Assembly: GCA_003142595.1 (NCBI GenBank)
Contig: PLMU01000012.1
Coordinates: 1 to 45,928, forward strand
DNA from: Phycisphaerales bacterium
GTDB taxonomy: Bacteria > Planctomycetota > Phycisphaerae > Sedimentisphaerales > UBA12454
Direction: 5' to 3'
DNA: 45,928 nucleotides
Part shown: positions 5,741 to 30,662 of the stretch, piece after piece
How the letters are laid out: each line of letters begins with the position of its first letter
Position numbering within the stretch: the stretch's first letter is position 1
Position numbers and translations under genes: made by a program
The notes under the pieces: model-generated
Told to the model about the DNA's origin: nothing
Seen by the model: only the letters and a program-made list of their open reading frames with translations
The model's database searches: none

Positions 5741-6229
5741 TTATTTTTTGCGTCTAATCATCAATCCGCCGAGGCAAAGCAGGGCGATTGTTGCCGGCTC
5801 TGGAACAATCGTAATAGTATTACTAATCAGGTCTACATCATCAAAGTTGCCGTCAAAGCTCTGGTAAGCAGTAATTTTATCGCCTAACACTGCACCACTG
5901 TAGTTTATCATTAGCCAAACACCTGTTGGATAAATACTAGTATAGGATATCATGTTGAAAACCTCTCCGATACCACCATCATAATAAAAAGGTTCAATAG
6001 ATCCTGGCCAGGAGTCTGGCGGAGCATCAGGGCCAAGATATGATGATAAAGTACCCACACCCTGTATGCAAACAGCCATTGAAAGGTCAGACTGATTGCT
6101 GGAAGGCACAACCCAGAGGTTTAAAGTGCCCCAGCCGGTATTGCTGCTGCCGCTTAGCGTCATAGATATTGTTGCATTTGCCAATGAGGCCATAGCAAGA
6201 ACTAAAACTAAAAATAACAACTTCTTCAT
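5741..6229 (-). CDS. Small PEP-CTERM sorted protein (copy 2)
   Basis: Exported protein of 162 residues. The signal peptide begins MKKLLFLVLVLAMASLANA, followed by a beta-rich domain starting TISMTLSGSS. The C-terminus carries a complete PEP-CTERM sorting signal: VPEP at about 143, a hydrophobic stretch, and the basic tail RRKK. In other bacteria this signal is processed by an exosortase and is linked to extracellular polysaccharide; no exosortase gene is in the window. It lies 20 bases downstream of a paralogue and shares long blocks with it (ISMTLSG, SYTS-YPTGVWL, ITAYQS-DGNFDDVD), showing tandem duplication. The domain itself is not recognised. It should be anchored to or released from the outer envelope. 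Confidence 0.88.
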   Translation of the reverse strand: MKKLLFLVLVLAMASLANATISMTLSGSSNTGWGTLNLWVVPSSNQSDLSMAVCIQGVGTLSSYLGPDAPPDSWPGSIEPFYYDGGIGEVFNMISYTSIYPTGVWLMINYSGAVLGDKITAYQSFDGNFDDVDLISNTITIVPEPATIALLCLGGLMIRRKK

Positions 6230-6249
6230 CTTCCTTCTCCCTTAATAAT

Positions 6250-6774
6250 TTATTTCTTGCGTCTAAGCATCAAACCGCCGATGCAAAGCAGGGCGATTGT
6301 CGCCGGCTCTGGAATAGCCATAAGAGAGTTGCTCTGCATGTCTACATCATCAAAGTTGCCGTCAGCGCTCTGGTAAGCAGTGATAACAGCGTCTGCACCT
6401 ATACCACTGTAGGTTACTGTTAGCCAAACACCTGTTGGATAAACACTGGTATATGACATCATGCTCCAGATTTCTCCGTTTCCATAAGTTGCAACAAGTG
6501 AAGTACCCAGTGCAGCATCCATACCTGCCATATCGACACCGGCATCTTCTGAATCTGTCGGAGCAGAAGCGCCAAGAGTGCCCGCGCTCAAAGTACCCGT
6601 GCCCTTTAGACAAATAGCCATCGAAAGGTCAAGCTGGCCAGTGGCTGAAGGTACAACGTAAAGGTCTATAATGCCTGAACCGGGAGTGCTGTCGCCGCTT
6701 AGCGTCATAGATATTGTTGCGTTTGCCGATGAAACCGCTGTGAGAATAAATAGAATTGCTAATAACTTCTTCAT
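6250..6774 (-). CDS. Small PEP-CTERM sorted protein (copy 1)
   Basis: Exported protein of 174 residues, paralogous to the next gene downstream. It has a signal peptide (MKKLLAILFILTAVSSANA), a beta-rich body beginning TISMTLSGDS, and the PEP-CTERM signal IPEP near residue 154, then a hydrophobic helix and RRKK. Compared with copy 2 it has a roughly 12-residue insertion in the variable middle (an acidic, Met/Ala-rich loop around SEDAGVDMAGMDAALG). A strong AGGAGG ribosome binding site precedes the ATG and a good sigma-70-type promoter lies about 40 bases upstream, so it heads a two-gene unit. No enzymatic motif is visible; a structural or matrix role is inference. Confidence 0.88.
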   Translation of the reverse strand: MKKLLAILFILTAVSSANATISMTLSGDSTPGSGIIDLYVVPSATGQLDLSMAICLKGTGTLSAGTLGASAPTDSEDAGVDMAGMDAALGTSLVATYGNGEIWSMMSYTSVYPTGVWLTVTYSGIGADAVITAYQSADGNFDDVDMQSNSLMAIPEPATIALLCIGGLMLRRKK

Positions 6775-10040: not shown

Positions 10041-10918
10041 TTATTTCGCTTCTGGTTTTTCAATCTCCATCACGACTCGGAATCCGATATGCGGCTGATT
10101 ATCTTTTGGCCAGCGGTGATTTCTGTCAGCCGACCGGCATTTATATGCATATTCATTCCACGCGCCGCCCCTGATTACTTTCGGCTTGCCTTCCTGCGGC
10201 CCTTTGGGGTCAGTCAATGGCGTTACTTTGTAGTAATCCCCGAATCGTAAATATCGCTGCACCATTCCCACACATTGCCGTGCATATCATACAATCCAAA
10301 TGCGTTTGGCGGATAAGACCCGACAGCAGTTGTATGTTTGAGGTATTTGCCGATAATTCCGTCGGCATAAGGTTCGCTCGCGTCGTAGTTGGCAAGGTCT
10401 GAATCAAGTGTTGTTCCCGTATTAAATGTCGTTTTTGTCCCGGCCCTGCATGCGTATTCCCATTCCGCTTCCGTAGGCAGCCTGAATTTCATATTTGTTT
10501 TGTCGGACAGCTTTTTCAGAAATCTCATCGCTTCATACCAGTTGACATTATCGACCGGCAGTTTGTCCCCGCCGAACTTGCTCGGATTTTCGTTCACAAT
10601 AACCCTGTATTGAATCTGGGTCACTTCGAACTTGCCGATGTAGAATGCTTTTGTCAGTTTGATATGATGCTGAGCCTCGTCGGAATCTCTCTTTGGCTCT
10701 TCCATCGGAGAGCCCATCTCGAATTCTCCTGCCGGAATAAATACAACTGCTATATTTACATCATTGCCCAGGTCGATTATCTTTTCAACTGGAAGTCCCG
10801 CCTTCTGGGCTGCTGTTTTTTGCTGGGTTGTAGCCGCCGGTATTTCTTTGACTTTTTCTACTGCTGTGACAACAGCCGCGATTGACAGAATCAAAAGTAT
10901 AGTCATAATTTTTTTCAT
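10041..10918 (-). pseudogene. Exported formylglycine-generating-enzyme/SUMF1-domain protein, frameshifted
   Basis: Two overlapping minus frames make one FGE-sulfatase (SUMF1/EgtB-type) domain. The first frame starts at 10918 with a signal peptide (MKKIMTILLILSIAAVVTA) and reads FIPAGEFEMGSP, FEVTQIQY, LPTEAEWEYACRAGT and GNVWEWCSDIYDSG before a stop. The second frame carries the family's C-terminal part DYYKVTP, RGGAWNE and IGFRVV, ending at 10041. The join lies at a GGGG run (10238-10241). One extra G would restore S-G-D-Y-Y-K, so this is either a single-base deletion or a sequencing/assembly error. Such exported FGE-domain proteins are often structural or ligand-binding rather than true sulfatase activators. 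It is followed by a strong terminator. Confidence 0.85.
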
Positions 10919-12056: not shown

Positions 12057-12175
12057 TTTTTCTATCTCCTAATAAATAAGTTGAAAATATTGTTTTTTAT
12101 ACAGGCCGGCTATTTTCGCAAGCCTTTGGCCAAAAAACAAGATAATTTTTCTTGCCTTTTTCACCCGTACGTACA

Positions 12176-12193
12176 GACGCACGGCCGTGCGTC
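12176..12193. repeat. Perfect 18-bp palindrome
   Basis: GACGCACGGCCGTGCGTC reads identically on both strands. It lies in noncoding decayed DNA, preceded by the self-complementary GTACGTAC, and followed by another hairpin (CCCCC-GTA-GGGGG near 12267-12279). Similar GACGC...GCGTC palindromes are dispersed in other bacterial genomes; copy number here cannot be judged from one window. Confidence 0.7.
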
Positions 12194-12310
12194 TCTTTCC
12201 CTACCATATATCCGACACGGAAATACTTGCCCCGTCGAAGCCGCAGCGTTGGAGCGTAGTGGAAACCCCCGTAGGGGGCAGACCCCGCTGCTTTCTATTC
12301 AATCCTTTGC

Positions 12311-12650
12311 TTAATAAATCGTTATGAATAGTGCGTGGGCCATTGCTTCTGCCAGTTTCTCATCGACGTTTCACTCCATAAACGCCTTTACCAGTTTATC
12401 TCTTACCTCTTTCAGGTATGTTTCGTATTTCTTCACAGCCTTTTTGACGACAATTTTGTCCTTTGGCGGGTTTATATACGTATTGTCCTTTTCTCCTTGC
12501 GTAATCCGAAAGTTGATAATTTTGGCACCTTAGCGAAAACTAAAAAAAGTCCTTCTTTGGTCTCTCAAAAAGCCTCATTATGGCCGTCCTGTAAGATTTC
12601 TTGGTAAGGTCTAATGTCTCTTGCTGTATCTTTTCACCAATCAATGGCAT
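12311..12650 (-). pseudogene. Decayed coding fragment of unknown family
   Basis: The minus strand holds pieces that read like a former protein. A 36-residue frame from 12650 begins MPLIGEKIQQETLDLTKK and ends after a seven-T run. A second frame then reads KIINFRITQGEKDNTYI ... KIVVKKAVKKYETYLKEV up to a TGA, and continues in the same frame through NVDEKLAEAMAHALFI to a TAA at 12311. The in-frame stop, the frame change at the homopolymer and the lack of a start for the second part indicate decay. I do not recognise the family. The lysine-rich helical character is the only trait visible. Confidence 0.45.
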
Positions 12651-12958
12651 TTATTACTTTGAGGGGATGATATTGTTTTTTTGATAATACAAACTCATCA
12701 TAAAATTACTATTTACTCGACATATCCAGATTTAATCTTCTTGCAAAATCTGATTTTGTTAGAATTAATTGCTTGAAAATGGCCCAATATCACTATAATA
12801 TGCCAAAGGAGCGAGGTAAGTATCTTCACTACTTCCTTATAAGCCCAAGTCCGGAACTTTTGGTAAGAAGGATCGTGTTATCAATATCAATTTCAGGATG
12901 AAATTAATGGTTGGGGTCTCCAAAAAAATGAGAAAAACTGTCATTATTAAACGAGTTT

Positions 12959-12983
12959 TGTCTATTATTCGGCATTATAGACA
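12959..12983 (+). promoter_or_regulatory. Inverted repeat beside the start of the coiled-coil gene
   Basis: TGTCTAT (12959-12965) and ATAGACA (12977-12983) are perfect inverted 7-bp arms around an 11-base loop, ending eight bases before the ATG and touching the AGGG ribosome binding site. It could be an operator or an mRNA hairpin limiting translation. Confidence 0.4.
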
Positions 12984-12991
12984 GGGAAATT

Positions 12992-15900
12992 ATGGATATG
13001 AAGCGACAGGAATCTTCGCAGAATCAATCTTCTGAAGCAGGTTCTTCAACGGACAAGAAATTTGTGCCAACCTGCAAGATATGCGGAGAAAAACATTGGC
13101 CTTCTCACCCTTTAGTATCTTGCCTAAACGTAAATAAAGCCAGGGTCAAAGCGAAAGAGGAGAAAAAAGCTATTGCAGAAGCCTTGAAAAAGGCCGAGGT
13201 TGAGGCTAAAGAAAATGCTCGTGCCGAAAAAAATGTCATCCTGGAAGCTCAAGAAAAAACAAAATATGAAGCACAATTAAGAACCAATGCTGAAAGACAG
13301 TTAGAATCTGCCGGCAAACATATCGCACAGATTGAGAAACAGCTTCTATTTGAGGTTGAGGCGAAACGGAAACTAACAGCTGAAAGTGAGGCTGAACGTA
13401 AGACCGGAATTCAAGTACAACAGGCTTTAAAAGATTCTCATAATACCATTGCAGACCTTCACCTAAAACTCAAGTTTGAATCCGAGCAAAAAGCAGAAGC
13501 CCAAAAACAATTGGAAGTTACAGCGAAACAGCTTGCTGAAAGGGAAGCAGAGGTTGCAGAAAACGCAAAGGTATTCAATGAGACCTTGGCAAAAACACAG
13601 GAAAAACTTGAGGTCGAAACACAGGCAAGGCTTGAAGCCGAAAAAAGAATTGAAGAACAAGCGGGGGAAATAATTAGACTCCGAACCCAAACTACAGAGA
13701 TGGCACAGAGTCACAAAGAGGAATTGGCTCAGTTCAAGCAGGACAAGGCAGAAGTTGATGCCCAGGCACAAAAGCAGATTAGAACTTACGCCGAACAACT
13801 TGCCAGCATAAAAACAGAAAGTGCGGAATTGATTTCACAAGTCAAATCTGAGTTGGAATCAAAAACCAGAGACTATGCCGAGTTGATAGCCAAAGCTCAA
13901 GCCGATTCTGTCAAAACTATTGCTGCACAAAAAGAGAAATACGAAGCCGAAACCGCTAAGAACAAAACTGATGCTTCAAATGAAATTGGACGGTTAAATG
14001 CACTGTTAAGAGAGAAGACGGAAGAATATCGGGTGTATCAAGAGCAATCTGAAGTTGAAGCAGAATCAACAAAGCAATCATTACATAAGACAGAACAATA
14101 TTTACAAGATACTGCGAAACAAATTGCGCGACTTGAGGAACAGTTAAAACTTGAAATCGAAATCAGGCATAATACGGAGTCGCAATTAAAAGAGCAAAGG
14201 TTGGTTTTGACTCAAGCTCAAGACCATGTTTCATCTTTAACCGAGCAAATTGCTCATATCCAGATTGAAGCCGCTGAAAAAGTTACTCAGGTAAAATCTG
14301 AACTGGAGTCAAAAGCCATGAACTATGCTGACTCCATAACTAAGGCAAAGGCTGAGGCTTTAGAAGCACTGACAAGCCAAAAAGAAAAAATGGAAACCGA
14401 AGCGAGGGACACCATTGCCCATATCAAATCTCAGGCTACAGATGAGATTGCTCAGCTGCGGTCCGTAATCGAAGAGAAAAATAAAGAATACCAGGCTCAG
14501 CTTCAGGCCGATCACAACGCAAGATTACAGGCAGAGCAGGAACTGCAAAATTACATAAAGGCATTCGCTCGTGCCGATGAAAAGGCCAATTTAATAGGGG
14601 AAGAACTTATCAAAGCTCGACAGCTTGCTCATGATGAGTCTAAAGCCCGGGTAAAGGCACAGGAACAGCTCGAATCTTTGACGCAGCAATTAAGCCAGAT
14701 CAAAATTGATACTGTCTCACAGATTGCATCTGCCAAATCTGACGCGGCGGAAGTAGTAGTAAATATCAAGTCACAGCTCGAAGAAAGATCGAAGGATTAT
14801 GCCGATTCAATAATAAAAGCAAAGGATGAAGCACAGAAAGCAATTCTGTCTGAAAGAGAAAAACAGAAAGCCGAAACTAATGATTTAGTCTCCACAATAA
14901 AATCAGAAACTGCGGTTGAAATTCAAAAACTTAAATCGCAGTTGGAAAATAATTCCACGGAGTATAGTCGCCGGATTAAAGAGACTGAAGCAATGCTGCA
15001 GGCGGAAACTCAGCGGCGAACCAAGATGGAAGAAAAAGTCAGAAACTTTGATGCGCTCCTTAGAGAAACAGAAGCCAATGTTGAGAAAAAAGCTCTTGCT
15101 CAAGCTGAGAAAAGGGCCAAGATTATAGCTAAATCCTGGGTAAGAGGCGAAACGATAGCAAGAGAGGAAGCTCAAGCCAGGGCCGAGGCCGAATTAAAAC
15201 AAAGGGCCGAGGCCGAGAAGAAACTAAAACTGATTAGCGTTCAATTGTCCAAACTTCAGGAGCAGCTCCTCATTCAGACTGAAGCCAGAAGCATCATCGA
15301 GTCACAGGCTGAAGAGTTCAAGCAGACAACGCTGCGGGCACAGCAGCAGGTTGAATCTTTGACGGAACAGTTAAATCAAATCAAAGTTGTAACTGCTGAG
15401 AGGATAGTATCTATTAAATCCGATGCTGCGGAAACGGTGGCAAAAGTAAAATCAGAACTCGAGGACAAAGCCAGGACATATGCCGAATCCATCTTAAAGA
15501 CCCAATCGCGGGTTGCTGAAATTTTAGATGCAGAAAGACAAAAATTAGAAGCTCAGACTGTCAAGACGATTGAGGAAGTTAAAGACCATGCAGCAAAGGA
15601 GCTTTTGGAAGTCAGGTCGCAATTAGAAAAGAAGAGGCAGCAATACGAAGCCCTGCTTGAAAAAGCCGATTCAGAACTGCAATCTGAACGGAATTCAAGG
15701 TTGGAATCTGAGCGGCAGTTAAAAAATTTGGGCGAGAAGATGGCCTGGCTTGAAGAACAGCTGGACATTCAGGTTAAAGCACGGGAAACAGCCGAGTCAC
15801 AAGCGGTAGAACAAATTGCACAGTTGAAATCCGAGTTTCACGAAAAAGTTCAAAGATATGAAACCCTTATTGAGGAGTCTGCAAGGAAAGAGGATTTAGA

Positions 15901-17278
15901 ACGTCTATCAAGGGGGAAATCCGAGCAATTGCTTGCAAGCGTGCGCCAGGAAGTTTTGCAGCTTCAGGGCCAGTTAAGTGCCATAGCAGAAGACAAACGC
16001 AATGAAGCATTAAAACTTCAGCAAAAAGAACAAATTATTGCCGAAGCTCAACAGCAGATTATGGTTTTAACAGAAAGAATTAACCAACTCAAAACAGGAA
16101 CGGCTGAAACTGTTGCAAAGGTCAAATCAGAACTTGAACAAAAAGCAGCTGCGTATGCGGAAGCGGCTGCAAAATCTCAGGATAAAACTGTTAAGATGAT
16201 TGCTGAACAGCAAAAATATTGGGAAGTTAAGACTACGCAGGAAATTACTAAAGTCGAAGCCAAAGCTGCTGAAGAATTAGCGGAATTGAAATCACAGCTG
16301 GACGAAAAAAACAAGGAATACAAAACTTTGTGGGAGCAATCCTCTGCCCAAAAGAACGCAGAACGTCTGGCAAAGGCTGAGTTTGAAAAACATGTTGGTG
16401 TTATAAACGAACGAATAGCCCATTTTGAAGACCAGTTAAAAATCCAGACCACCCTTAGACAAAAAGCCGAATTGCAGGTAGAAGTAGAGGCAAAGACCAA
16501 GCATGAAGCTCAACAAGAAGTCAAATCCTTAACGGAACAAATGGTTCAGCTAAAGATTAAAATCGCTGAAGTTAAAGCACAAATCAAATCTGAGCTGGAG
16601 GAAAAAGCGAGGAACTATGCTGATTCTATTTTAAAAGTTAAGAGTGAAGCTGCCCAAGCACTATCTGCGGAAAAACAAAGTTCCGAGGCTGAAACTTCGG
16701 AGTTGGCCGTAAAGGAGAAAGCGGAGGCCGAAAAGAAAATTTCAGCCCAGCATATAGAGTTCAATGAGAAAATTAAAGAGTACCAGGCTGTGCTTCAGCA
16801 GACCAAAACTGATGCCGAGCAGAAAATCCGTGAATATAAAGATAGTCTTAAACAGGCAAAGATGCAGACCGAATCTGAAGCAAGAGCAAAATTGGAAGTT
16901 GAACAAAAACTAAGGGCGGTAAGCGAAAAACTGGCGGGACTTGAACAAAAATTAATTGGCCAAATCGAGGCAAAGAACAGGGCCGAAGCTTTATTAGAGG
17001 ATGAACGGCGGGCAAAAATCGAAGCTGAACAAAAAATACAATTTGATAAGGCAAAAGAAAAAGCAGTAGCCGAAACTGCACAGAAGTCGAATGTGGCAAC
17101 AACTGCAGCAGCACAAGTCAAGCCGCAGTTAGCTGAACCGGCAAACGTTCAGACAGGGACGGGGACTTGTGAGTGTTGCGGCAAAGACAACGTTAAAAAA
17201 ACTGAGTTGCACAGAATTGATTCTGGCGAATTCTTTTGCCTCACTTGTTTCCAAGCCTTAAAAACCACAAGTGTGTGA
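12992..17278 (+). CDS. Giant coiled-coil protein with Cys-rich (putative zinc) module at each end
   Basis: A single 1428-residue frame. The N-terminus holds CKICGEKHWPSHP followed by a further Cys (about 28-48), resembling a CxxC/His zinc knuckle. The C-terminus holds CECCGKDNV and FFCLTCFQ (about 1390-1420), a four-Cys zinc-ribbon pattern (CxxC ... CxxC). Everything between is charged Glu/Lys/Ala/Gln heptad-like sequence, predicted as an almost continuous coiled coil, with no signal peptide or TM helix. A long module (xKSELExKARxYADSI, then a Lys/Glu block and E-I-x-x-L-K-S-Q-L) recurs with its KSELE-type core starting near residues 284, 434, 592, 819, 1044 and 1198, spaced about 150 or 225, i.e. 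multiples of about 75. A cytoskeletal, scaffold or SMC/tropomyosin-like role is possible but unproved. I recognise no named family. The start at 12992 follows AGGG; ATG 12998 is the alternative. Confidence 0.85.
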   Translation: MDMKRQESSQNQSSEAGSSTDKKFVPTCKICGEKHWPSHPLVSCLNVNKARVKAKEEKKAIAEALKKAEVEAKENARAEKNVILEAQEKTKYEAQLRTNAERQLESAGKHIAQIEKQLLFEVEAKRKLTAESEAERKTGIQVQQALKDSHNTIADLHLKLKFESEQKAEAQKQLEVTAKQLAEREAEVAENAKVFNETLAKTQEKLEVETQARLEAEKRIEEQAGEIIRLRTQTTEMAQSHKEELAQFKQDKAEVDAQAQKQIRTYAEQLASIKTESAELISQVKSELESKTRDYAELIAKAQADSVKTIAAQKEKYEAETAKNKTDASNEIGRLNALLREKTEEYRVYQEQSEVEAESTKQSLHKTEQYLQDTAKQIARLEEQLKLEIEIRHNTESQLKEQRLVLTQAQDHVSSLTEQIAHIQIEAAEKVTQVKSELESKAMNYADSITKAKAEALEALTSQKEKMETEARDTIAHIKSQATDEIAQLRSVIEEKNKEYQAQLQADHNARLQAEQELQNYIKAFARADEKANLIGEELIKARQLAHDESKARVKAQEQLESLTQQLSQIKIDTVSQIASAKSDAAEVVVNIKSQLEERSKDYADSIIKAKDEAQKAILSEREKQKAETNDLVSTIKSETAVEIQKLKSQLENNSTEYSRRIKETEAMLQAETQRRTKMEEKVRNFDALLRETEANVEKKALAQAEKRAKIIAKSWVRGETIAREEAQARAEAELKQRAEAEKKLKLISVQLSKLQEQLLIQTEARSIIESQAEEFKQTTLRAQQQVESLTEQLNQIKVVTAERIVSIKSDAAETVAKVKSELEDKARTYAESILKTQSRVAEILDAERQKLEAQTVKTIEEVKDHAAKELLEVRSQLEKKRQQYEALLEKADSELQSERNSRLESERQLKNLGEKMAWLEEQLDIQVKARETAESQAVEQIAQLKSEFHEKVQRYETLIEESARKEDLERLSRGKSEQLLASVRQEVLQLQGQLSAIAEDKRNEALKLQQKEQIIAEAQQQIMVLTERINQLKTGTAETVAKVKSELEQKAAAYAEAAAKSQDKTVKMIAEQQKYWEVKTTQEITKVEAKAAEELAELKSQLDEKNKEYKTLWEQSSAQKNAERLAKAEFEKHVGVINERIAHFEDQLKIQTTLRQKAELQVEVEAKTKHEAQQEVKSLTEQMVQLKIKIAEVKAQIKSELEEKARNYADSILKVKSEAAQALSAEKQSSEAETSELAVKEKAEAEKKISAQHIEFNEKIKEYQAVLQQTKTDAEQKIREYKDSLKQAKMQTESEARAKLEVEQKLRAVSEKLAGLEQKLIGQIEAKNRAEALLEDERRAKIEAEQKIQFDKAKEKAVAETAQKSNVATTAAAQVKPQLAEPANVQTGTGTCECCGKDNVKKTELHRIDSGEFFCLTCFQALKTTSV

Positions 17279-17311
17279 AATAAACTGTGTAAACGGTCAT
17301 AGAAGTGTTAA

Positions 17312-17327
17312 CCTTTTAGATAAAAGG
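17312..17327. terminator. Small hairpin between convergent genes
   Basis: CCTTTT-AGAT-AAAAGG is a perfect 6-bp stem located between the ends of the coiled-coil gene and the convergent membrane-protein gene. It is AT-rich and weak; a terminator role is only likely from its position. Confidence 0.35.
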
Positions 17328-17336
17328 AACTTAGCC

Positions 17337-17729
17337 TCAGGATTTCATTATTCTTTTATATCCGCACTTTCGACACACCGCATACAGTGGGGAACTAATC
17401 TGCTGAATGGTTCTATCTTCTCCAATGCTGGTTTCTTCTGCTAAATCCGATCTTATTTCTACCCGCAGATATGTCCCGCAATCAGGACAGGCGTATTCTT
17501 CGGGATATTTTCTGACAAGCTCATTTTCTGCCCATATATTTGCAGCTTTTTTGGAGACCCATAGCCATAATCCCAAAATTATGATTGATAAGAGAATCCA
17601 TAGCCACATTCCTAATATGTTCCAGACTACAAAAATCCACACTGCTGTTACTACCACAAGGGGCAATGTGTAAATTTTCGCATCCCATTGGCTCTTTGCC
17701 CAGCATTTAATTGTCTGTATCAGGTCCAT
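17337..17729 (-). CDS. Small membrane protein with C-terminal zinc-ribbon-like cysteines
   Basis: Protein of 130 residues. Two hydrophobic helices lie at about 22-42 and 43-62 (VVVTAVWIFVVWNILGMWLW, then ILLSIIILGLWLWV), followed by a soluble tail with CPDCGTY (about 82-88) and CRKCGYK (about 119-125), a typical four-Cys zinc ribbon. The N-terminus is cytoplasm-facing by the positive-inside rule in either topology, so the ribbon is probably cytoplasmic. It converges on the giant coiled-coil gene, which also ends in a CxxC-CxxC ribbon; a functional link is speculative. No recognised family. Its start overlaps the beginning of a spurious longer frame on the same strand. Confidence 0.7.
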   Translation of the reverse strand: MDLIQTIKCWAKSQWDAKIYTLPLVVVTAVWIFVVWNILGMWLWILLSIIILGLWLWVSKKAANIWAENELVRKYPEEYACPDCGTYLRVEIRSDLAEETSIGEDRTIQQISSPLYAVCRKCGYKRIMKS

Positions 17730-18214
17730 TTTCCTTTTTTATTACATATTAAACGCTTGGCTACACAACCAAGCCTTTCAATCCAATAATAATATAAAAA
17801 TCTTTTTCGAATCACATAACCAATTGTTAATTTTTTTTTATTCTCAAATAATTTACATAGAAATACCGCTGAATTGTGAACGAATGGGAAATTCTCAACT
17901 AACTTCTCATTTTTTTCCTTCTCCGTTAATAGCCACATCATTATAGGATATTTTCTGTTGACAATCAAGGGAAAACCCCTTTCAAAAAAGGAAAAAAACC
18001 TTCAAAAACCTGTAAAAACTCATGATTTTCTCTTACTTTTCATCAAAATCAGCGAAATCCGCGTCTAAAAATACTCACTTTTTTACCTGTTTTAAAAAAA
18101 ACATACCCCTTTTGCAAAGGAACTTGCGCTTTTTTTTAAAAAATTTTCCATAACTCCTTTATTTATTTTTCAAAATAACGACTTACATCATTTTCTCCAA
18201 CGCAAATAAAAGAC
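17730..18214. other. 485-base AT-rich intergenic region
   Basis: No credible gene is seen. Homopolymer A/T runs are frequent. Near 18040-18070 a sequence of the type ATCAAAATCAGCGAAATCCG resembles dispersed noncoding repeat text known from many environmental genomes. An 82-residue minus frame here (17720-17968) has no ribosome binding site and low-complexity composition. Confidence 0.5.
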
Positions 18215-19634: not shown

Positions 19635-21830
19635 ATGGCGGCAGGTGTTCGCTCTGTATGGGCAATAGATATAGGCAATAATTCACTGAAAGCGCTTCGC
19701 CTTCAGGCGGGAAGCGACCGTGTTGAGGCAATTGGACTCGATTATATCGAGCATCCCAAAATTTTAAGTGCTGAAGGTATCAGCGAAGAAGAAAAAAATC
19801 AGATTATCCTCGCAAGCCTGGCAACGTTCGCAGGCAGAAACGAATTAGGCAAAGATGAAGTTGCTATTTCGGTTCCCGGCCAAACAAGTTTTGCAAGATT
19901 TATAAAACTTCCTCCTGTCGAACCAAAAAAAATTCCTGAAATAATAAAATTCGAAGCTGTTCAGCAAATACCATTCGACATAAACGAAGTTGAATGGGAC
20001 TGGCAGCAGATGCCAAAACCTGACAGCCCTGAAGTCGAAGTCGGAATATTCGCAATAAAGAATGAACTTATAAGCAGATACCTGGACAACTTCACGGCTG
20101 AACATCTGAGAGTTTCCATAGTCCAGATGGCCCCAATGGCTATGTATAATTACGCCCATTTCGACCGCAACGACCTCGATGAAACTGATAAAAAGGCTGT
20201 GGTACTTCTCGATATGGGTACGGACAATACGAACCTTGTAATATGCACAAAACTAACTGTATGGCAAAGATGTATTCCCCTTGGGGGAAATAATTTCACC
20301 AGGGCTGTTGCAGATGCTTTCAAACTCGATTTCGAAAAGTCCGAAAAACTCAAGCGAGGCGCTCCGGTCAGCAAATATGCCCGACAAATTTTTCACGCAA
20401 TGAAGCCGGTTTATACCGATTTCGGAGCCGAAGTACAACGCTCACTGGGATATTACAGCAGCAGCCATAAAGGAACTGCTTTCACAAAATTAGTACTGCT
20501 GGGCGGCAGTTTCAAACTGCAGGGCCTGAACAAATATATTCAGCAGACAACACAACTTCCTACTGTTAGGCCGGATTCATTTGAAAAACTTGTTCCTGCT
20601 GCAAATGTATCAAGCGCTAAACTGCACGACAATCTCTGCGATCTGGCAATTACATACGGGCTCGGCCTTCAGGGGTTAGGTCTGGGCAGAATACACAGCA
20701 ACCTTTTGCCGAGCAGAGTAGCCCGCAGAATGATGTGGGCAAGAAAAAGCAAATTTTTTATTATTGCAGCATGTATTTTGCTTGCCGCGTCATTACTGGC
20801 ATTTGCCAGAACATATATCGACCTGAAAGCCTGTGCTGACAAAAATGCCCAGATTAAAAAACAGGATACAGAGAATATTCTTCGCCAGGCGAGAGACGTT
20901 ACCAGTAAATTGAAGCAGCAGGAGGCAAGAAGCAGCGGGTATGAAGAAAAAATAAAAAAACAAATGGAAATGTTTAAATATCGGAACATAATTCCGGAAC
21001 TCAATAAGGCAATTTTAAAATGCATAAGCAATTCCACCCAGTCCGAACTTTACAAGGCTTATGATGAGGGCAATGTTGAAAAAATAACAACAACGCCGCG
21101 AAATGAGCGCAAACAGGTTTTCATTACAAGTATGACCATAAACTATTCCGATAGTTTGATAGCCGCACAACTTGGATCAAGCGGAGTCAGCAGGGGATAT
21201 ACGCCGCCGCCCACAGCGGCACAGCCGGCCGGTGCAATAAAAGATGGAAGAGGATTTGTAGTTGTCATTGAAGGTTATACGCCTTTTGAAAAAGTCGGCG
21301 AACTTTTGGACCCCGCTGGAGTTGGAAATGACAAAAGCAAATGGGGAATCGTAACATGGATGATGAATCTTAATGATGTATCCGATGGTAATAGCCCGTT
21401 TAAACTGTTTTACAAAGATAATATCGAACACTTCAGAGACGAAACAGGCATTGTTGACCTGACGGACAGTCGAATGCCGGCGGGTATCGGTATTTTGCAG
21501 GTTAAACCGAGAGTTTCAAAGGAGCAGCAATCGGAAACTTCACGTGTCAACAGCAGAGGTTCCGGCGGTGCCGATACGTCGGACCGCGTAACAAGTGAAC
21601 AGGTTTTCGTTGACCCGCTTACTAAGGAGGAAATAAGCAAAACATTTGACATCGATGAAAAAGGCAGAAAAAAATATGACTCCTTCGGCCAACCTGTATA
21701 TATAGAAAGGGATAAGTGGTTCAGAATTAAAGCTAAATTTTTATGGAAAGATGCTCCACTATTACAGGGTCTGGCAGGAGCCGTATCCGCACAAAGCGTC
21801 TCTCCACAATCTGTAGAGCATGGTGAGTAA
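19635..21830 (+). CDS. PilM-type actin-like ATPase fused to a membrane/PilN-like segment
   Basis: Protein of 731 residues. The first 350 residues are a PilM/FtsA-like domain: VWAIDIGNNSLKALRL (phosphate-1 loop, 8-23), VAISVPGQTSFARFIKLPPV, FEAVQQIPFDINEVEWDWQ, LLDMGTDNTNLVI (phosphate-2) and LLGGSFKLQGL (adenosine motif). A TM helix follows at about 372-392, then a coiled coil (about 393-455) and a mixed C-terminal domain with a Pro-rich insert near 520 and a Gly/Ser linker near 640. PilM normally sits in the cytoplasm bound to the PilN tail; here both seem joined. The start follows GGAGAAG. It heads a three-gene plus-strand block, likely the inner-membrane assembly platform of a second pilus/secretion system. 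The C-terminal function is unknown. Confidence 0.82.
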   Translation: MAAGVRSVWAIDIGNNSLKALRLQAGSDRVEAIGLDYIEHPKILSAEGISEEEKNQIILASLATFAGRNELGKDEVAISVPGQTSFARFIKLPPVEPKKIPEIIKFEAVQQIPFDINEVEWDWQQMPKPDSPEVEVGIFAIKNELISRYLDNFTAEHLRVSIVQMAPMAMYNYAHFDRNDLDETDKKAVVLLDMGTDNTNLVICTKLTVWQRCIPLGGNNFTRAVADAFKLDFEKSEKLKRGAPVSKYARQIFHAMKPVYTDFGAEVQRSLGYYSSSHKGTAFTKLVLLGGSFKLQGLNKYIQQTTQLPTVRPDSFEKLVPAANVSSAKLHDNLCDLAITYGLGLQGLGLGRIHSNLLPSRVARRMMWARKSKFFIIAACILLAASLLAFARTYIDLKACADKNAQIKKQDTENILRQARDVTSKLKQQEARSSGYEEKIKKQMEMFKYRNIIPELNKAILKCISNSTQSELYKAYDEGNVEKITTTPRNERKQVFITSMTINYSDSLIAAQLGSSGVSRGYTPPPTAAQPAGAIKDGRGFVVVIEGYTPFEKVGELLDPAGVGNDKSKWGIVTWMMNLNDVSDGNSPFKLFYKDNIEHFRDETGIVDLTDSRMPAGIGILQVKPRVSKEQQSETSRVNSRGSGGADTSDRVTSEQVFVDPLTKEEISKTFDIDEKGRKKYDSFGQPVYIERDKWFRIKAKFLWKDAPLLQGLAGAVSAQSVSPQSVEHGE

Positions 21831-21837
21831 GATATAG

Positions 21838-23133
21838 ATGACTATGAAGATAAGATTTAATATAGATATAGCCAAGATATTAAAAAAGAATACGGTAATA
21901 ATTATACCCGTAGCAATAGCATTGGCAGCTGCGCTGCTCTTTGTTCCTACGTATCTAATGCGTGGGAAAATAAAGGTCAGTCTTGAAGAGAGCGTGAAAG
22001 TCGGCAATGAAGTTGCCTCTGCTGAGCGAACTGTCGTTTCCAGCAAACAATACGAAGAAGCGAAAAAGTACGAAGATATATATCAGGCAGACGCCAACGA
22101 AATTGAAAATCTTGCACGGCAGGCGGGCCAGAGAGAATTGATAAGTTATAAAATATTCCCGGAGCCAAATGAGAAATCCGCGCAAATTTTTAATGAATTT
22201 AGAAAGTCATATGCCAGTGCCTTTGCGGGTCTGACAAAAGATATGAATGCGCTGGATGCTCCAACAGATAATGAAATTCGAAAACAAGCAGGTTCGGTCG
22301 ATATCACAACAGATGCCGCCTCACGTGGATCTCCTTCAGAAAGCAGCAATGATAAAATTGTAGAGCTTATGCGTAAACGCCGCAGCGAAGAAGTGTCGGT
22401 CTATGCCAGCCCAAAGGCCTTCAGCGGATATGCAGTCTGGGACAAATGGGAATACAGCGGCGTTGACAGTGCCGTAAAGAGCTGCTGGTATTGCCAGCTT
22501 GCCTACTGGATACATAAAGATGTCGTCGATACCATAAAATATATGAACCAGGGCTTTAGCAACACGACAAAATCATCAGTAAAAAGACTTCTTAACGTAC
22601 GATTTACCAACAGCACCGCCGATAATGGTCTTGAACTGCCTGTTTATGTGACTAAAGTGGGCAACGGCTTGTGTTTACCATGGACCGGCAGAATATGCAA
22701 CGACCAGATAGATGTCGTACACTTCAGCTTGTCGGTAATTATCAGAGCGGACGATGTACTGAAATTTATGACAGCGTTATGCAGCGAAAAGGAACATACT
22801 TTTGCCGGATACAAAGACAACCAAAAACCTGAAAAATACAAACATAATCAAATAACTATCCTTCAAAGCAGTATCGTACCGATTGACAGAGAAAATGCAG
22901 AACATAAAAGGTATTATTATGGAGAAAATGCCGTTGTTCTGCTGAACCTTGTCTGTGAGTATGATTTTATCCGAAAAGGTTACGATTCCGTAAAACCGCG
23001 ATTTATTCAGGTAACTGACATAAATGGCGTAGTACCAGGAACGCAGCCACAACCGCCACAACCGCGGCAACAACAACCAGCTCCTGCTCCTCAACCGCGA
23101 GAACAAAGGAACAGAGGCGGTGAAGGTGAATAA
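21838..23133 (+). CDS. Single-TM protein of pilus-platform block, family unknown
   Basis: Protein of 431 residues. A short basic cytoplasmic N-terminus is followed by a TM helix at about 20-40 (VIIIPVAIALAAALLFVPTYL), then a helical stretch (about 45-115) and a mixed domain with ELPVYVTKVGNGLCLPW. It ends in a Pro/Gln-rich tail with RNRGGEGE. The layout (TM, coiled coil, periplasmic domain) is like PilN/PilO-type proteins, but I see no diagnostic motif. It begins seven bases after the PilM-like gene and shares the terminal GGEGE with the next gene product, suggesting that the two tails bind the same partner or are processed alike. Its place between PilM-like and the 662-residue protein makes a role in the secretion platform likely. 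Confidence 0.68.
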   Translation: MTMKIRFNIDIAKILKKNTVIIIPVAIALAAALLFVPTYLMRGKIKVSLEESVKVGNEVASAERTVVSSKQYEEAKKYEDIYQADANEIENLARQAGQRELISYKIFPEPNEKSAQIFNEFRKSYASAFAGLTKDMNALDAPTDNEIRKQAGSVDITTDAASRGSPSESSNDKIVELMRKRRSEEVSVYASPKAFSGYAVWDKWEYSGVDSAVKSCWYCQLAYWIHKDVVDTIKYMNQGFSNTTKSSVKRLLNVRFTNSTADNGLELPVYVTKVGNGLCLPWTGRICNDQIDVVHFSLSVIIRADDVLKFMTALCSEKEHTFAGYKDNQKPEKYKHNQITILQSSIVPIDRENAEHKRYYYGENAVVLLNLVCEYDFIRKGYDSVKPRFIQVTDINGVVPGTQPQPPQPRQQQPAPAPQPREQRNRGGEGE

Positions 23134-23248
23134 CCAGTGGTGAAAGAACGATATACGAAATACAGTAAGTAAAAATATTTGTTAAAAATGGAATTAATAG
23201 TTTATTAAAAAAAGAATTATGGATATTAATAAATTTTGATTTGATGCT

Positions 23249-25237
23249 ATGAGCAGTAAAAAAGGAAATATAGTCGAGCTTTTTATTGATAAGGCAATAC
23301 TGGCCGTTGCAGGGCTTATCTCTGTGGTAATACTTTTTATCTTTGTTATAAGCACTACAAAGATTGAATATAGAAACGACTGGTACGGTCCGAAGGGAAT
23401 AGACAATGTAATCAACAAAAAGGCGCTCGAACTGCGTGATAAACTGCAAAAAGACCCAAATACAGCCAACCGGTACAAATCCCGAAAAACTCAATTCCTA
23501 TCGCAACTGGAAAATTCGATTAAACAAGTTGATACAGAGATCAAGTATCCGCTGCCGGGATATGCAAGCGGGCCTCAGGCAGATATACACAGGATTTACC
23601 ACATTCCATCAATGCCTCCGATAGAAAAGCCTACCGCGGCTGTGGCAAAAATGGCGGCATTTGTGCCCACAGAAGAGCTTTCACCCACGGTTAGTTATCA
23701 AACTGTAGAAACAAAACTTGAGGATATGGACCTTGTAACCGTCGAATCTGCTATCAACGCAAAACAGCTTTACGCTGATTTCCAGGAAGCTTTTGCAGGC
23801 AAGGGTGTTCGGGAAGCGTGGCGAAATGGACAGTATGCAAAACCTGTTTTTGCAAAAGTCGAGCTTCAAAGAAAAATTCAACAATCCGATGGAAGCTGGA
23901 GCGACTGGGCTGAAGTGCCGCGAACAAAAATATGTTATCTGAAAAAAGACCTGCAGATTTCGAAGAAAGCGGGCGAATACGAAATGGAAATATCGCTTGT
24001 TCAGTTTGCCAAAAACGAATATCGCAGCGAAATACTCCAGCCGCCCGTTTATTATAATGCAATACCTGCTGCGCCGTGGATAAGCCCGTCATTTTATAAT
24101 GAAAGGCAGAAGGAAATCACCAAGCAGCAGGATGAAGCCCGCCGTTTACAGATTGAAGCTGAAAAAGCAAAGAAACTTCAGGAAAAAGCCACTCAACCAA
24201 CACGGCAGCCAGCTACAACAAGGCAGCCGACAACAAGGCCTTCGGGCGGCGGCGATACTGGTGAAGGCGGCAGAACACCCGGGGCGAGGGAACCTGTAAC
24301 GGCAAGAACACAGAATCCGCGGCAGCCACCAGCAGCGAATCCAGCGAGAAAGCCTGTTGAAAAACCGGCCGGGGCCGTCAGACCCGAAAAGAATGTTACA
24401 ACTCCTGAGCAGGCACAATCCGCAAGCGAAGAGAGTAAATTTAACGCTATCAGGCTTATGCCAAATACAAATCCAGGTGAACTGGACAAACTTGTTTTCT
24501 GGGCTCACGATGACACTACAGTGCCCGGAGAAAAATATCAGTACCGCATTAGAATAGGAGTGTTAAATCCTATCGCAGGCAAGAAATGGTTCGCTGAAGA
24601 CCAAAATGACCTTCGGAACCAGGTTGTACTATGGAGCAAATTCGCCGAGGCAAATGATGTGGTTGAGATACCTCAAAAACTTTATTTCTTTGCCAGCGAC
24701 ATCCGTGAGATTGAAAAAGGCGGCAATGTTGACAAAACTGTGGAAGTTATGGTTGCACGGTATATGTTTGGCAACTGGTTTAACCATACATTCAACGTCA
24801 AAAGCGGAGAAGAGATCGGCAAAATAGTCGAAGCAACCGACCCTCGCCTTGAACAGGCAGGCATAAGCAGCGATACAATAAATTTTTATACCGGAGCAGT
24901 AATGGTTGATGCCCGCAAAGTAACCGAGTGGATAGGCTCAGGAACATTGCGGTCGCGGGAATATTACGAATTTCTGTACAGCCGCGACGGAAAGACTATA
25001 GAAAAAGCGGCAATCAAAGAAAGATTTTGGTCTGCCAAAGTTGCAAAAATTTACAAAGAAATATCAGATGCTCTTGCGGTTCCGCCGATAACGCTTTTGA
25101 GCTGGAGTCAGGCAATGACGAATAGCGGACAGCAGATATTACAACGAATAACTCCGCAAGAATCTGTTCCTGGTGCCGGTACTCAACCGAGACAACCGCA
25201 GGCTCCTGTCAGACAAGGAGGAGGAGAAGGTGAATAA
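23249..25237 (+). CDS. Large single-TM protein with Pro/Arg-rich linker, family unknown
   Basis: Protein of 662 residues: short N-terminus, TM helix at about 16-36 (ILAVAGLISVVILFIFVIS), a first globular region to about 285 (including WAEVPRTKICYLKKDLQI), a Lys/Glu helix, then a low-complexity linker (about 310-390) rich in Pro, Thr, Arg and Gln, a second globular region (about 410-635, with VFWAHDDTTVPGEKYQYRIRIG and FFASDIREIE), and a Gln/Pro tail ending GGGEGE. This ABC layout of two domains joined by a Pro-rich linker is what GspC/PilP-type connectors use to reach a secretin, but no homology motif is visible. A weak ribosome binding site precedes the ATG. It is the last gene of the plus block and converges with the glycosyltransferase gene. 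Confidence 0.68.
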   Translation: MSSKKGNIVELFIDKAILAVAGLISVVILFIFVISTTKIEYRNDWYGPKGIDNVINKKALELRDKLQKDPNTANRYKSRKTQFLSQLENSIKQVDTEIKYPLPGYASGPQADIHRIYHIPSMPPIEKPTAAVAKMAAFVPTEELSPTVSYQTVETKLEDMDLVTVESAINAKQLYADFQEAFAGKGVREAWRNGQYAKPVFAKVELQRKIQQSDGSWSDWAEVPRTKICYLKKDLQISKKAGEYEMEISLVQFAKNEYRSEILQPPVYYNAIPAAPWISPSFYNERQKEITKQQDEARRLQIEAEKAKKLQEKATQPTRQPATTRQPTTRPSGGGDTGEGGRTPGAREPVTARTQNPRQPPAANPARKPVEKPAGAVRPEKNVTTPEQAQSASEESKFNAIRLMPNTNPGELDKLVFWAHDDTTVPGEKYQYRIRIGVLNPIAGKKWFAEDQNDLRNQVVLWSKFAEANDVVEIPQKLYFFASDIREIEKGGNVDKTVEVMVARYMFGNWFNHTFNVKSGEEIGKIVEATDPRLEQAGISSDTINFYTGAVMVDARKVTEWIGSGTLRSREYYEFLYSRDGKTIEKAAIKERFWSAKVAKIYKEISDALAVPPITLLSWSQAMTNSGQQILQRITPQESVPGAGTQPRQPQAPVRQGGGEGE

Positions 25238-27165: not shown

Positions 27166-28527
27166 TCATTCCGACTGTTTTTTTGCTAATTTTTCTTTTT
27201 TCGCCTTTTCTTTTTCCTGTGCTTTTTTATCTTCCGCTTCTTTTTTCTGCTCATCTTTCTTTCTCTCTTTGGTCTCTGGAATTGTCAGAAGAGGTCTTTG
27301 CGTAATTTCATTGAACTTTTCCATCTGAGCATCTGTAGTTTTTTCTCCGTTAATATGAGGAGAAAGAAGCACAAGCAATTCAGAACTGTTCCGAGTTGTT
27401 TCTGTTGACTTGAAGGCATAACCTATTATTGGCAAATCGCCGAGTATAGGAAGCTGACTAGTCTGTTTCTGTGTATCTTTTCGCCGCAGTCCGCCGATGA
27501 CAAGAATCTGTTCGTCATTCATCAGCAGTGAACTTTGAATTTTTCTTGTATCAACTATCGGTACGCCGCTACCGCCGGTGGTGACGACACTTGAACCTGT
27601 TTTGACGCTCTGTTCGGCGTTTACGTTCAGGAGAATTAATTTGTCGTCTGTTAGCGTTGCCACGACCTTAAGCGATATACCGACATTCTTGAATTCCGTG
27701 CTTGTCAAAGATCCGCCGCCGCTTGTATTGGACTGATTCGAATATGGTATTTCTTCAACGGACTCGATAGAAGCGGTTTGGCCGCTGACGACCATGACTC
27801 GCGGACTTGCGAGGATTTCTACATTATTTTTCGTCTGCAAAACGTGAATTACATTTCTGATATTGCCGTAGATTAGACTAAAGTCGGAACCCAAACCAGT
27901 CGTAGCCCAGGGGAGAACGGTAGCGTCTGTAGTAGTGAGGGTTGTAGTACCAGTAGTATCAGTAGAGCCTACAGTATTTGAAGTGACCCTGCCGCTGAGA
28001 CTTTGTCTGAAGGAAGTGCCGATTTCTGAAGAAGAACTTAACTTGTTATCATAATTGCTGGTAAGCATATCCCAGTTGACGCCGATTTCCGTATCGTTGT
28101 TGAGTTGTACATCGAGGAGGACGACTTCAATCATAATCTGGTCGGGCTTGCGGTCAATTTTGCGAATCTGCGCAAGGATTTTGGCCAGATTTTCATTTGT
28201 GTCGCAGATTATCAGAGTATTGCCCGTACTGTCCGGCTCTATTTTACCGTTTATGGTCAACATCGGCTCAATCGAATTTTTTAAACTTTTTGCGCTGAGG
28301 AATTTCAATGTTGCGGTCTCGACAAAGAGATCGGGTTTTTCAGCTATGGTCTTTTCGACAGGGGTGCGATTCTGACTTGACGTTAACTGCAGAAATGGAT
28401 TACTCTTGGTTATTTCATTTATGTCAATTGACTGCTCGCCGGCACCATGAACAACTATGGTAAGGCTTAAAAGGCTTAACAGTATCGCGGCGAACAATAA
28501 CTTCTTATATTTATTTATTTTTAACAT
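27166..28527 (-). CDS. Secretin (GspD/PilQ family), short form
   Basis: Protein of 453 residues forming the outer-membrane ring. Signal peptide at the N-terminus (LLFAAILLSLLSLTIVVHGAG). One N1-type domain is visible (about 52-125, TLKFLSAKSLKNSIEPML and LIICDTNENLAKILAQIRKID), then the secretin core (about 130-400) with VEILASPRVMVVSGQTA, VGISLKVVATL, and the signature LPILGDLPIIGYAFKS. It is shorter than typical GspD or PilQ, which carry N0 and several N domains. The C-terminus is a 35-residue Lys/Glu tail (KERKKDEQKKEAEDKK and onward) instead of an S domain. It overlaps the PilO-like gene by 17 bases and is the last secretion gene of the minus operon. Confidence 0.9.
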   Translation of the reverse strand: MLKINKYKKLLFAAILLSLLSLTIVVHGAGEQSIDINEITKSNPFLQLTSSQNRTPVEKTIAEKPDLFVETATLKFLSAKSLKNSIEPMLTINGKIEPDSTGNTLIICDTNENLAKILAQIRKIDRKPDQIMIEVVLLDVQLNNDTEIGVNWDMLTSNYDNKLSSSSEIGTSFRQSLSGRVTSNTVGSTDTTGTTTLTTTDATVLPWATTGLGSDFSLIYGNIRNVIHVLQTKNNVEILASPRVMVVSGQTASIESVEEIPYSNQSNTSGGGSLTSTEFKNVGISLKVVATLTDDKLILLNVNAEQSVKTGSSVVTTGGSGVPIVDTRKIQSSLLMNDEQILVIGGLRRKDTQKQTSQLPILGDLPIIGYAFKSTETTRNSSELLVLLSPHINGEKTTDAQMEKFNEITQRPLLTIPETKERKKDEQKKEAEDKKAQEKEKAKKEKLAKKQSE

Positions 28528-29107
28528 TGCTTTTATTCTCCTTAACCTTTAATGTGAATATGCTTAAAGTAATGTCACAACTAAGATAACCGTTTGTTGA
28601 TGGCTTAGTTCCTATATTTATTTCATCGACCCAGACTTTGACGGGTCTATTTTGAAGGGTATTTAAAAATTGCACTATATTTCCGTAACTTCCCAAAAAA
28701 GTCATAACAATTCGATACTGACCGATATCAATTGAGTTGTTATCTTTCACGGCAATGTTCTGCAGGGGCCTAAATTGGAGATTTGTAACCGGACAGCCGC
28801 TTTTTTCAGATTCCGATTGAAGGCCTGAAAGAAAAGTTTTTGCTTGGTCAATATCAAAAAAGACCTGTTTCTTCTGTTCAAACTCCTGGGTAAGGTTATC
28901 GAGTTTTTTCCTGCGCAGTTCCAGTTCGCTTAGTATAATTTTGCTTTGTTTTTCTGTTGAGTCCATCATTTTGCTATATTTCTGGGCAGCAGCAAGATAT
29001 TTCGTATTAGGCGAGATAAACCAGTTATACATCGCAATGATACCTATAAGCAGCATCGCTACTGCAAACGCATTTTGTTTTAACCAAACCGGATATTTCG
29101 GTGACAT
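28511..29107 (-). CDS. PilO/GspM-like inner-membrane assembly protein
   Basis: Protein of 198 residues with the PilO/GspM plan: a short cytoplasmic tail, one TM helix (about 13-30, FAVAMLLIGIIAMYNWFI), a coiled coil (about 35-85) and a ferredoxin-like C-terminal domain with IVMTFLGSYGNIVQFLNTLQNRPVKV, the part of the family that is best conserved. It partners PilN/GspL in the inner membrane. The gene starts one base after the PilMN-like gene ends and overlaps the secretin start, so tight coupling is evident. Confidence 0.8.
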   Translation of the reverse strand: MSPKYPVWLKQNAFAVAMLLIGIIAMYNWFISPNTKYLAAAQKYSKMMDSTEKQSKIILSELELRRKKLDNLTQEFEQKKQVFFDIDQAKTFLSGLQSESEKSGCPVTNLQFRPLQNIAVKDNNSIDIGQYRIVMTFLGSYGNIVQFLNTLQNRPVKVWVDEINIGTKPSTNGYLSCDITLSIFTLKVKENKSNVKNK

Positions 29108-29108
29108 A

Positions 29109-30662
29109 TCAGTTGTCCTTTATTTTTTTATTGTCAATGGAACAAATTATCGAATAGTCAGTCATGCCGTTACTATACTGTGTATTCTGTTTGGCATCTG
29201 TAAGCTGAGCGGAATTTATGATTTTACATGAGTTCAGCCGGTTGATGAAGTCATTGATGGCGTTATAATTTATAGCCAGACCATTAATCTTTACTGTTGA
29301 GGAATTGCGAGATTCAATATTCTGAATTCGCACAGTCTGAGGGGCTTTCGTGCCTATCTCAGTCAGTATAAAAGCCCAGTTGTGCCAGGTTTTATCTTTA
29401 AGAGCGGTATTGATAGTTTTAACGTTCCAGGCAATTCGTTGAGCAGCTTCGTTGACATCCGCCCGTGTCCGAATTAATTGCGGTATATTGATATTTGCCC
29501 GGTTTTGTTTGCTTTGAATAAACTCGTTTCTTGCATGTGCGGTCTCTTTTGTCAAAAAAGCAATATATATAAAAATAAGGACAAAAATCAGGGCAGCGAT
29601 ATTTATTATTGCCAATAACTGCCTGCGTGCCTTTCTGATTTCATAGATTTCATTAGGAAGCAGATTAATGCTCGTGCCGAAATCATTGACATCGAGCAGT
29701 TTCATCGCGGCGCCTGCCGCAACAGGAGAAAAATCGTCGGTCTTCACGCCTTCTGAAATAATATCAACATTGCTGACGTCGATTTCTGAAATCTCGATAT
29801 TCTGGCGTCGTATATGGTTTCTCAGTTGCCCGGCAATTTCCTTTGCCTTTGATAAATCAAAACTGCCTGCCAGATAAACAGGCCAGTTTTTCTGTTCTGA
29901 GGTTCTTTCGAGTTCATAAAACTGCACTACAGATTCTATTTGCTCGGCAATAACATCGATATGTTTCTTAGTGTCGGAAAAATCAAAATCGAATTTCTTT
30001 ATGCGGAGAAAATCGAATTTCTGTCCACTGAAGACACACAGACTCATATTCTCATCATGCAGGAGAACAAGCATTACATTTTTTTGTCCGGCATGTTTTA
30101 TCACCTTGCCGTAGCAAGCTCTGATAAGTGCAATGATGGCAGGCTCAATCGAGCGGATGTCAACGTGATTTTTATCAAACTCCTTTGCAGCCATGGTAAG
30201 CGGCTCAATCTGAGCGGCTCCTACAAGGGCGCTTTTCTGTGCCGAGCTGTCGTAACTCCTGAGAGAGCAATAATCAATCAGAACATTTTTAAGAGGCAGA
30301 ACTGCATACTGCCTTATCTCCTCCTGAATGAATTTTCTTGTTACATCCGGTGAAGGGTCGGGAGGATTTAGAATCTGGAGCAGTTCGGGTGATGAACGAA
30401 AACACAAGCCCGCATCGCAATGCCGCGGATAACTTGTGATTCCCGATTTTCTTACAGCACTGGCAATAGCTTTAAATCTCTCAATTCCATTGCCGCCGGG
30501 TGACTCTTTGTCTATTGCTACACGGCTGCAGCCGATAAGGGAAATCTTACCATAGCTTTTCTCAAGGCGAACAATGCTGACAGAATCTTTGCATACGTCT
30601 ATTCCAATGACTTTTTTTGGTGTATCCAGTCCGATAGTTTTTTTATGTTTTTTGTTTTTCAT
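29109..30662 (-). CDS. PilM-PilN fusion (GspL-like)
   Basis: Protein of 517 residues. The first 340 residues match the actin-like PilM/GspL cytoplasmic domain (VIGIDVCKDSVSIVRLEKS near 18; PVYLAGSFDLSKAKEI near 260). A TM helix at about 347-369 (LLAIINIAALIFVLIFIYI) and a periplasmic coiled coil with a small domain (TVRIQNIESRNSSTVKINGLA) correspond to PilN. The nucleotide-binding loops look degraded compared with the PilM-like protein at 19635. The fusion is the usual layout for GspL of type II secretion. The stop overlaps nothing; the PilO-like gene follows after one base, and the GspK/PilX-like gene overlaps by four at the start. Confidence 0.82.
   Translation of the reverse strand: MKNKKHKKTIGLDTPKKVIGIDVCKDSVSIVRLEKSYGKISLIGCSRVAIDKESPGGNGIERFKAIASAVRKSGITSYPRHCDAGLCFRSSPELLQILNPPDPSPDVTRKFIQEEIRQYAVLPLKNVLIDYCSLRSYDSSAQKSALVGAAQIEPLTMAAKEFDKNHVDIRSIEPAIIALIRACYGKVIKHAGQKNVMLVLLHDENMSLCVFSGQKFDFLRIKKFDFDFSDTKKHIDVIAEQIESVVQFYELERTSEQKNWPVYLAGSFDLSKAKEIAGQLRNHIRRQNIEISEIDVSNVDIISEGVKTDDFSPVAAGAAMKLLDVNDFGTSINLLPNEIYEIRKARRQLLAIINIAALIFVLIFIYIAFLTKETAHARNEFIQSKQNRANINIPQLIRTRADVNEAAQRIAWNVKTINTALKDKTWHNWAFILTEIGTKAPQTVRIQNIESRNSSTVKINGLAINYNAINDFINRLNSCKIINSAQLTDAKQNTQYSNGMTDYSIICSIDNKKIKDN

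Follow-up and report, generated by a model that had tools for sequence, protein, structure and literature searches.

A giant planctomycete coiled-coil protein with conserved putative zinc modules at its ends and a rod of variable length

The stretch of DNA considered here (the window) comprises 45,928 nucleotides of contig PLMU01000012.1 from a planctomycete, a Phycisphaerales bacterium with a genome of 2.28 Mb (assembly GCA_003142595.1). At positions 12992–17278 of its plus strand lies an ATG-initiated open reading frame (ORF) for a protein of 1428 residues, the subject of this report. The same ORF had been picked out in an earlier examination of the DNA that used no database searches (the sequence-only reading). 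The gene has homologues in related genomes, and its comparison with that of the closest relative, the congener G003, gave a ratio of nonsynonymous to synonymous substitution rates (dN/dS, Nei–Gojobori method) of 0.42 for the whole gene and 0.27 within the C-terminal module described below. These values indicate purifying selection on the reading frame, moderate in the rod.

The protein is dominated by Glu, Ala, Lys, Gln and Leu. Its Cys residues (28, 31, 44, 1393, 1395, 1396, 1416 and 1419) and its Pro residues (26, 37, 40, 1378 and 1383) lie only near the two ends. The 1337 residues between Pro40 and Pro1378 form a Pro-free, extended helical stretch such as characterizes a generic coiled-coil-rich protein (CCRP), and no transmembrane stretch was found (maximum Kyte–Doolittle value over 19 residues, 0.63). 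A helical coiled-coil rod was assigned to residues ~47–1375 (13130–17116, plus strand) from the lack of Pro, from internal repeats and from a Fourier analysis of hydrophobicity, which stands here in place of a dedicated coil predictor and gave a period of 3.59 residues for the window protein (normalised power 17.9) and of 3.51–3.53 for most relatives. The description of the protein in the sequence-only reading, as nearly all-helical with clusters of Cys at both ends, is in agreement with these data.

The N-terminal cluster is a CCHC-type knuckle (residues 28–44; 13073–13123, plus strand). Cys28, Cys31, His35 and Cys44 are invariant in 13 representative sequences and conserved in at least 90 % of 33 relatives, while His39 is replaced by Ser or Asp in some of them. 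The conserved positions have the ligand order of a CCHC zinc knuckle (C-x2-C-...-H-...-C), and binding of a metal would be expected from this pattern. The spacing, C-x2-C-x3-H-x8-C (x6 in place of x8 in the CBS branch of the family, described below), differs from the retroviral C-x2-C-x4-H-x4-C. In an AlphaFold model the knuckle passes directly into a continuous helix, with a mean predicted local distance difference test score (pLDDT) of 88 over the knuckle and the start of the helix; the first 52 helix residues score mostly ~90–95, falling to about 79 at the very end. A Foldseek search with this model returned no meaningful match.

The C-terminal module spans residues 1393–1419 (17168–17248, plus strand). 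Four Cys residues (1393, 1396, 1416 and 1419), together with the Ser and Gly of a DSG motif, are invariant in 27 sequences; Cys1395 is not. At both ends, then, the ligand residues show little or no variation, unlike their neighbours, and conservation of Cys in homologues, the lack of which had been named beforehand as grounds for rejecting a zinc-capped protein, was in fact observed. The AlphaFold model of the C-terminal module (pLDDT ~94) consists of short strands followed by a helix bearing the second Cys pair. This order of elements fits a treble clef, and the model presents the cap as a treble-clef-like finger with a single zinc. The fold matches are weak (Z <5, Foldseek E >0.1); the neighbours include FYVE and Rab-effector fingers, among them that of EEA1, as well as GATA, RING and ribosomal zinc proteins. 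With the ligand positions conserved and the C-terminal cap confidently modelled, the earlier term 'zinc-capped' appears apt, metal binding itself being predicted from the sequence and the models. The caps at the two ends are unrelated to each other.

Small fingers in Pfam resemble the C-terminal module to a limited degree. DUF7685 was matched weakly by 14 of 22 module copies (best E value 1.9e-5), and zf-C4_ClpX and DUF4428 by two copies each. The window copy scored 17.1 bits, against a curated cutoff of 27 bits, and differs from these fingers in its conserved DSG signature and in its position at the C-terminus of a giant rod. A second, small copy of the module is present elsewhere in the genome. 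The module also forms the C-terminus of proteins with a CHAD domain (a polyphosphate-associated family; L116, 4718–6289, and L117, 5041–6576), and of three proteins of 181–316 residues without a Pfam name (L025–L027), in which it follows an N-terminal domain marked by the sequence WWWKVKLPGE and a short coil. That N-terminal domain is presumably akin to the arm-type domain found in tyrosine integrases. The occurrence of the zinc module on the CHAD and WWWKVKLPGE proteins indicates that it behaves as a portable one.

The nature of the two caps raises the question of whether they bind RNA or DNA, with the rod linking or spacing them, in a scaffold associated with nucleic acid or the ribosome. 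The knuckle is CCHC-like, and its sole named match, albeit a weak one below the cutoff, is to the Pfam zinc-binding region of eIF3g (E value 0.015), with which it shares the CxxC-x3-HW...C spacing and from which it differs in having a longer stretch between the His and the final Cys (x8; x6 in the CBS branch). Its helix flanks are rich in Lys and Arg, GATA and ribosomal zinc proteins are found among the fold neighbours of the C-terminal module, and that module also occurs on the short WWWKVKLPGE proteins with their presumed integrase-like N-terminus. However, proteins and lipids are equally frequent binding partners of zinc knuckles and of treble clefs, and no family-wide association with genes for translation or nucleoid functions was observed. 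A role of this kind is considered improbable.

Relatives were sought with a knuckle profile (FVPTCxICGxKHWPxHPLxPC). Within the order of the window it identified a single gene in each of 33 of 161 genomes, representing 18 genera and three families. No match for the knuckle was found outside the order, in samples of 397 genomes of the class and 392 of the phylum. Many of the relatives come from metagenome bins with truncated contigs. Both zinc ends were present in one uninterrupted ORF in 18 of the 33 relatives, at total lengths of 744–2860 residues, and five others carry a CBS pair at the C-terminus instead of the zinc module. Nine of the remainder reach a contig end, and the end of L087 is unreadable because of masked bases. 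Every relative with an intact, readable C-terminus therefore bears a cap. The CBS branch (L107, L108, L110, L111 and L112) has a rod rich in Ala, Lys and Glu, and a variant knuckle in which Asp replaces the second His and the loop is shorter; this knuckle is duplicated in L108, L110 and L112. Family members without a knuckle protein were noted to carry a different coiled-coil protein with no zinc ends, of 1452 residues in L029 (6304–10662) and of 550 residues, at a contig end, in L030 (31–1683); the C-terminal tails of the two are similar.

No match to the whole protein was found in Pfam, NCBIfam, PHROGs, PADLOC (defence families) or PDB sequences, the last searched with the whole protein, its N-terminus and a profile of its C-terminus. 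Of the known classes that had been proposed as possible refutations of a novel architecture, two were considered and neither was matched. SMC and Rad50 proteins were rejected since the ends are zinc modules and no ABC ATPase heads were detected in Pfam or NCBIfam; a phage tape-measure protein was rejected because there was no PHROGs match, the neighbouring genes are chromosomal and the family had no match in viral contigs. A literature search for a zinc ribbon combined with a coiled coil in Phycisphaerae retrieved no paper. As far as these searches reach, the family is undescribed.

The rod contains internal repeats. Self-comparison of the window protein gave 613 windows of 21 residues scoring at least 45, whereas none of 200 shuffles that preserved the heptads gave more than 11. 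The six copies of a core motif listed in the sequence-only reading were all found, at an offset of no more than one residue: KSELESKTRDYAELI at 13844–13891 (residues 285/295), KSELESKAMNYADSI at 14294–14341 (435/445), SQLEERSKDYADSI at 14768–14815 (~592/603), KSELEDKARTYAESI at 15449–15496 (820/830), KSELEQKAAAYAEAA at 16124–16171 (1045/1055) and KSELEEKARNYADSI at 16586–16633 (1199/1209), all on the plus strand. The protein of G003 is 1279 residues long and is 77–83 % identical to the window protein in two long aligned blocks and ~70 % identical in two shorter C-terminal ones. It has an extra block of ~122 residues near residue 516, and it lacks a rod block of ~230–232 residues (~942–1171; 15815–16504, plus strand) and a further block of ~39 residues. 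These differences between congeners (~122, ~232 and ~39 residues) are direct evidence of recent gain and loss of units. Taken with the excess of repeats over shuffled sequences, they support the earlier suggestion, made from sequence, that the rod grows by internal duplication.

It had also been proposed that the rod is built on a unit of ~75 residues and could serve as a molecular ruler, since the spacings between motif copies (150, 158, 227, 225 and 154) are near two or three times 75 in this one protein. The main lags of self-similarity were 227, 225, 764, 154, 158, 150 and 379, and no lag near 75 appeared in the top list for the window protein. Lags of 65–85 accounted for 40 windows, no better than the 42 in an arbitrary control range (100–120) and far fewer than the 242 at 140–165. 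The real lags are thus 150–158 and 225–227, and the unit of 75 residues amounts to numerology on five spacings. It was rejected, given the lack of a signal at lag 75 and the ~122-residue block of the congener, which is not a multiple of 75. Nor are the spacings maintained in G003 (150, 280, 227 and 147). Internal repeats exceed shuffles in every complete family member examined, and their length depends on the lineage: 150/227 in the genus of the window, and 154, 64/78, 106, 85, 130, 134, 176, 100 and 216 in others. Rods range from ~650 to 2700 residues across the family, total lengths vary 3.8-fold, and within another genus, lengths of 1164–2037 residues occur among congeners. The ends are therefore conserved and the rod length is not, which argues against a ruler, now a very unlikely function, and for a spacer or scaffold of variable length. 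The family represents a clear case in which selection holds two short ends and leaves the length between them free.

A long heptad rod with non-helical ends is also the plan of intermediate filament (IF)-like proteins such as FilP and crescentin (PMC6599971, PMC10873595). If the window protein were of this type, its rods would assemble into filaments through both lateral and end-to-end packing, the caps serving as assembly domains at head and tail, and the internal repeats of 150–227 residues could provide staggered lateral contacts. Crescentin, FilP and Scy, which are coiled-coil-rich and IF-like, resemble the family, according to the same reports, in being long coiled-coil rods with short ends, and are cytosolic, as the family presumably is. 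The family differs from them in its much longer rod of variable repeat length and in the zinc modules at both ends; the bacterial examples in the text available are far shorter (candidates of 280–650 residues; crescentin, 457 residues), and zinc caps are not described there. A defined, conserved rod length and domain plan, moreover, is lacking (744–2860 residues, lineage-specific repeats), even between congeners. A filament is thus the main rival to the reading favoured below, possible though doubtful; were the protein to polymerise, it would represent a new cytoskeletal class.

The reading favoured here, to which we assign a probability of roughly 0.4, is that the protein acts in the cytosol as a tether or scaffold with two working ends. 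The rod would be a long coiled coil of two or more chains and serve as a flexible spacer, its precise length being unimportant; the knuckle at the N-terminus and the treble-clef-like module at the C-terminus would be zinc-binding docking heads for two different partners. This proposal draws on the anatomy of the protein (the ORF, the ligand patterns at both ends and the helical periodicity) and on its evolution, in which rod units are gained and lost and the ends are kept while the rod varies. The protein has the look of a rope, or tether, that carries a fixed hook on either end, and the presence of the C-terminal module on other proteins is as would be expected of a portable docking module that is reused. 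Three points weigh against a tether. The treble-clef matches are weak and non-specific (best Foldseek E value 0.12), the same anatomy would also be in keeping with a filament protein that has a head domain and a tail domain, and no partner gene is conserved family-wide, conserved neighbours being limited to the genus level.

In architecture, the nearest analogue is EEA1, a eukaryotic protein of ~1.4 thousand residues, in line with the PDB numbering of 1joc. It resembles the window protein in size and in having an N-terminal zinc finger, a long coiled coil and a C-terminal zinc domain, and FYVE and Rab-effector fingers located at the ends of coiled coils, as in EEA1, were among the best, albeit weak, fold neighbours of the C-terminal module (Z 3–4.8). 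The EEA1 homodimer, with a FYVE finger at its C-terminus, tethers endosomes (PMC12162657). The N-terminal finger of EEA1 is, however, of the C2H2 type and that of the window protein CCHC. FYVE domains bind two zincs through eight ligands, compared with four invariant Cys residues in the window module, so homology with EEA1 is not supported. None of the solved EEA1 chains matched the coil protein in sequence, the family had no FYVE match in Pfam, and its C-terminal end does not qualify as a FYVE domain. The likeness is one of analogy, and at most the architecture may be convergent. The earlier statement that no named family has this architecture thus stands as regards database families, none of which fits the whole protein, and is to be qualified by the analogous arrangement of EEA1. 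Stalks of the TolA type, by comparison, share the Ala-, Lys- and Glu-rich helical rod seen in many relatives, and one short relative matches them weakly; the family has zinc caps instead of a membrane anchor or TolA domain III.

Long coils have been regarded as rare among bacteria: an old survey of 22 proteomes, which included ten bacteria but no planctomycete, predicted none longer than 400 residues in the bacterial set (PMC1322226). Here, one planctomycete order carries a conserved family of such rods with fixed zinc ends, and planctomycetes are a phylum known for internal membranes (PMC4452313). If the caps do bind different structures, the protein would be a tether in bacteria akin to a hallmark feature of eukaryotic traffic. 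More speculatively, the family may have evolved the plan of EEA1 independently, as a giant dimeric rod that lengthens and shortens as its repeats recombine, with a different zinc docking head on either end and caps that can be exchanged (zinc module or CBS pair), tethering two structures in planctomycete cells.

The unit conserved with G003 extends from 12745 to 17805 and consists of the coil gene, 247 bp upstream of it and a convergent gene for a membrane protein of 130 residues with two CxxC pairs (17337–17729, minus strand), which is 82 % identical and likewise adjacent to the coil gene in the congener. This protein, noted earlier as a convergent membrane protein with a zinc ribbon, is real; apart from one weak match, it is absent from the rest of the order. 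Being nearly confined to two genomes, it may be a local partner rather than a family-wide one. Synteny breaks on both sides of the unit, the left flank corresponding to contig C13 of G003 and the right flank to C29. At these breakpoints are dispersed, multi-copy intergenic repeats (12057–12744 and 17806–18214), which match the genome at up to 17 places. The flanks, earlier taken for decayed DNA, are thus in part correctly described, and the repeats may explain both that appearance and the rearrangement relative to G003.

Directly upstream of the start codon, and conserved in G003, is a 25-bp imperfect palindrome, TGTCTATTAT-TCGGC-ATTATAGACA (12959–12983), possibly an operator or a leader hairpin. 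It is unique in the genome, with no recurrence at up to three mismatches, which rules out a regulon-wide operator of that exact sequence. An Rfam scan over the locus gave no match.

Other genes in the window may be mentioned briefly. An FGE-sulfatase-domain gene (10041–10918, minus strand) is split, by either a frameshift or an assembly error: most of the domain lies within the first 231 residues, and the C-terminal RGGAWNEYAYKCRSADR part follows in a different frame. Two adjoining, similar, short secreted-looking proteins of 162 and 174 residues (5741–6774, minus strand) are apparently a tandem duplicate. A PilM-like protein of the Amuc_1101 family is encoded with two unannotated companion genes at 19635–25237, separate from a PilM/pseudopilin-like cluster at 28511–38474.

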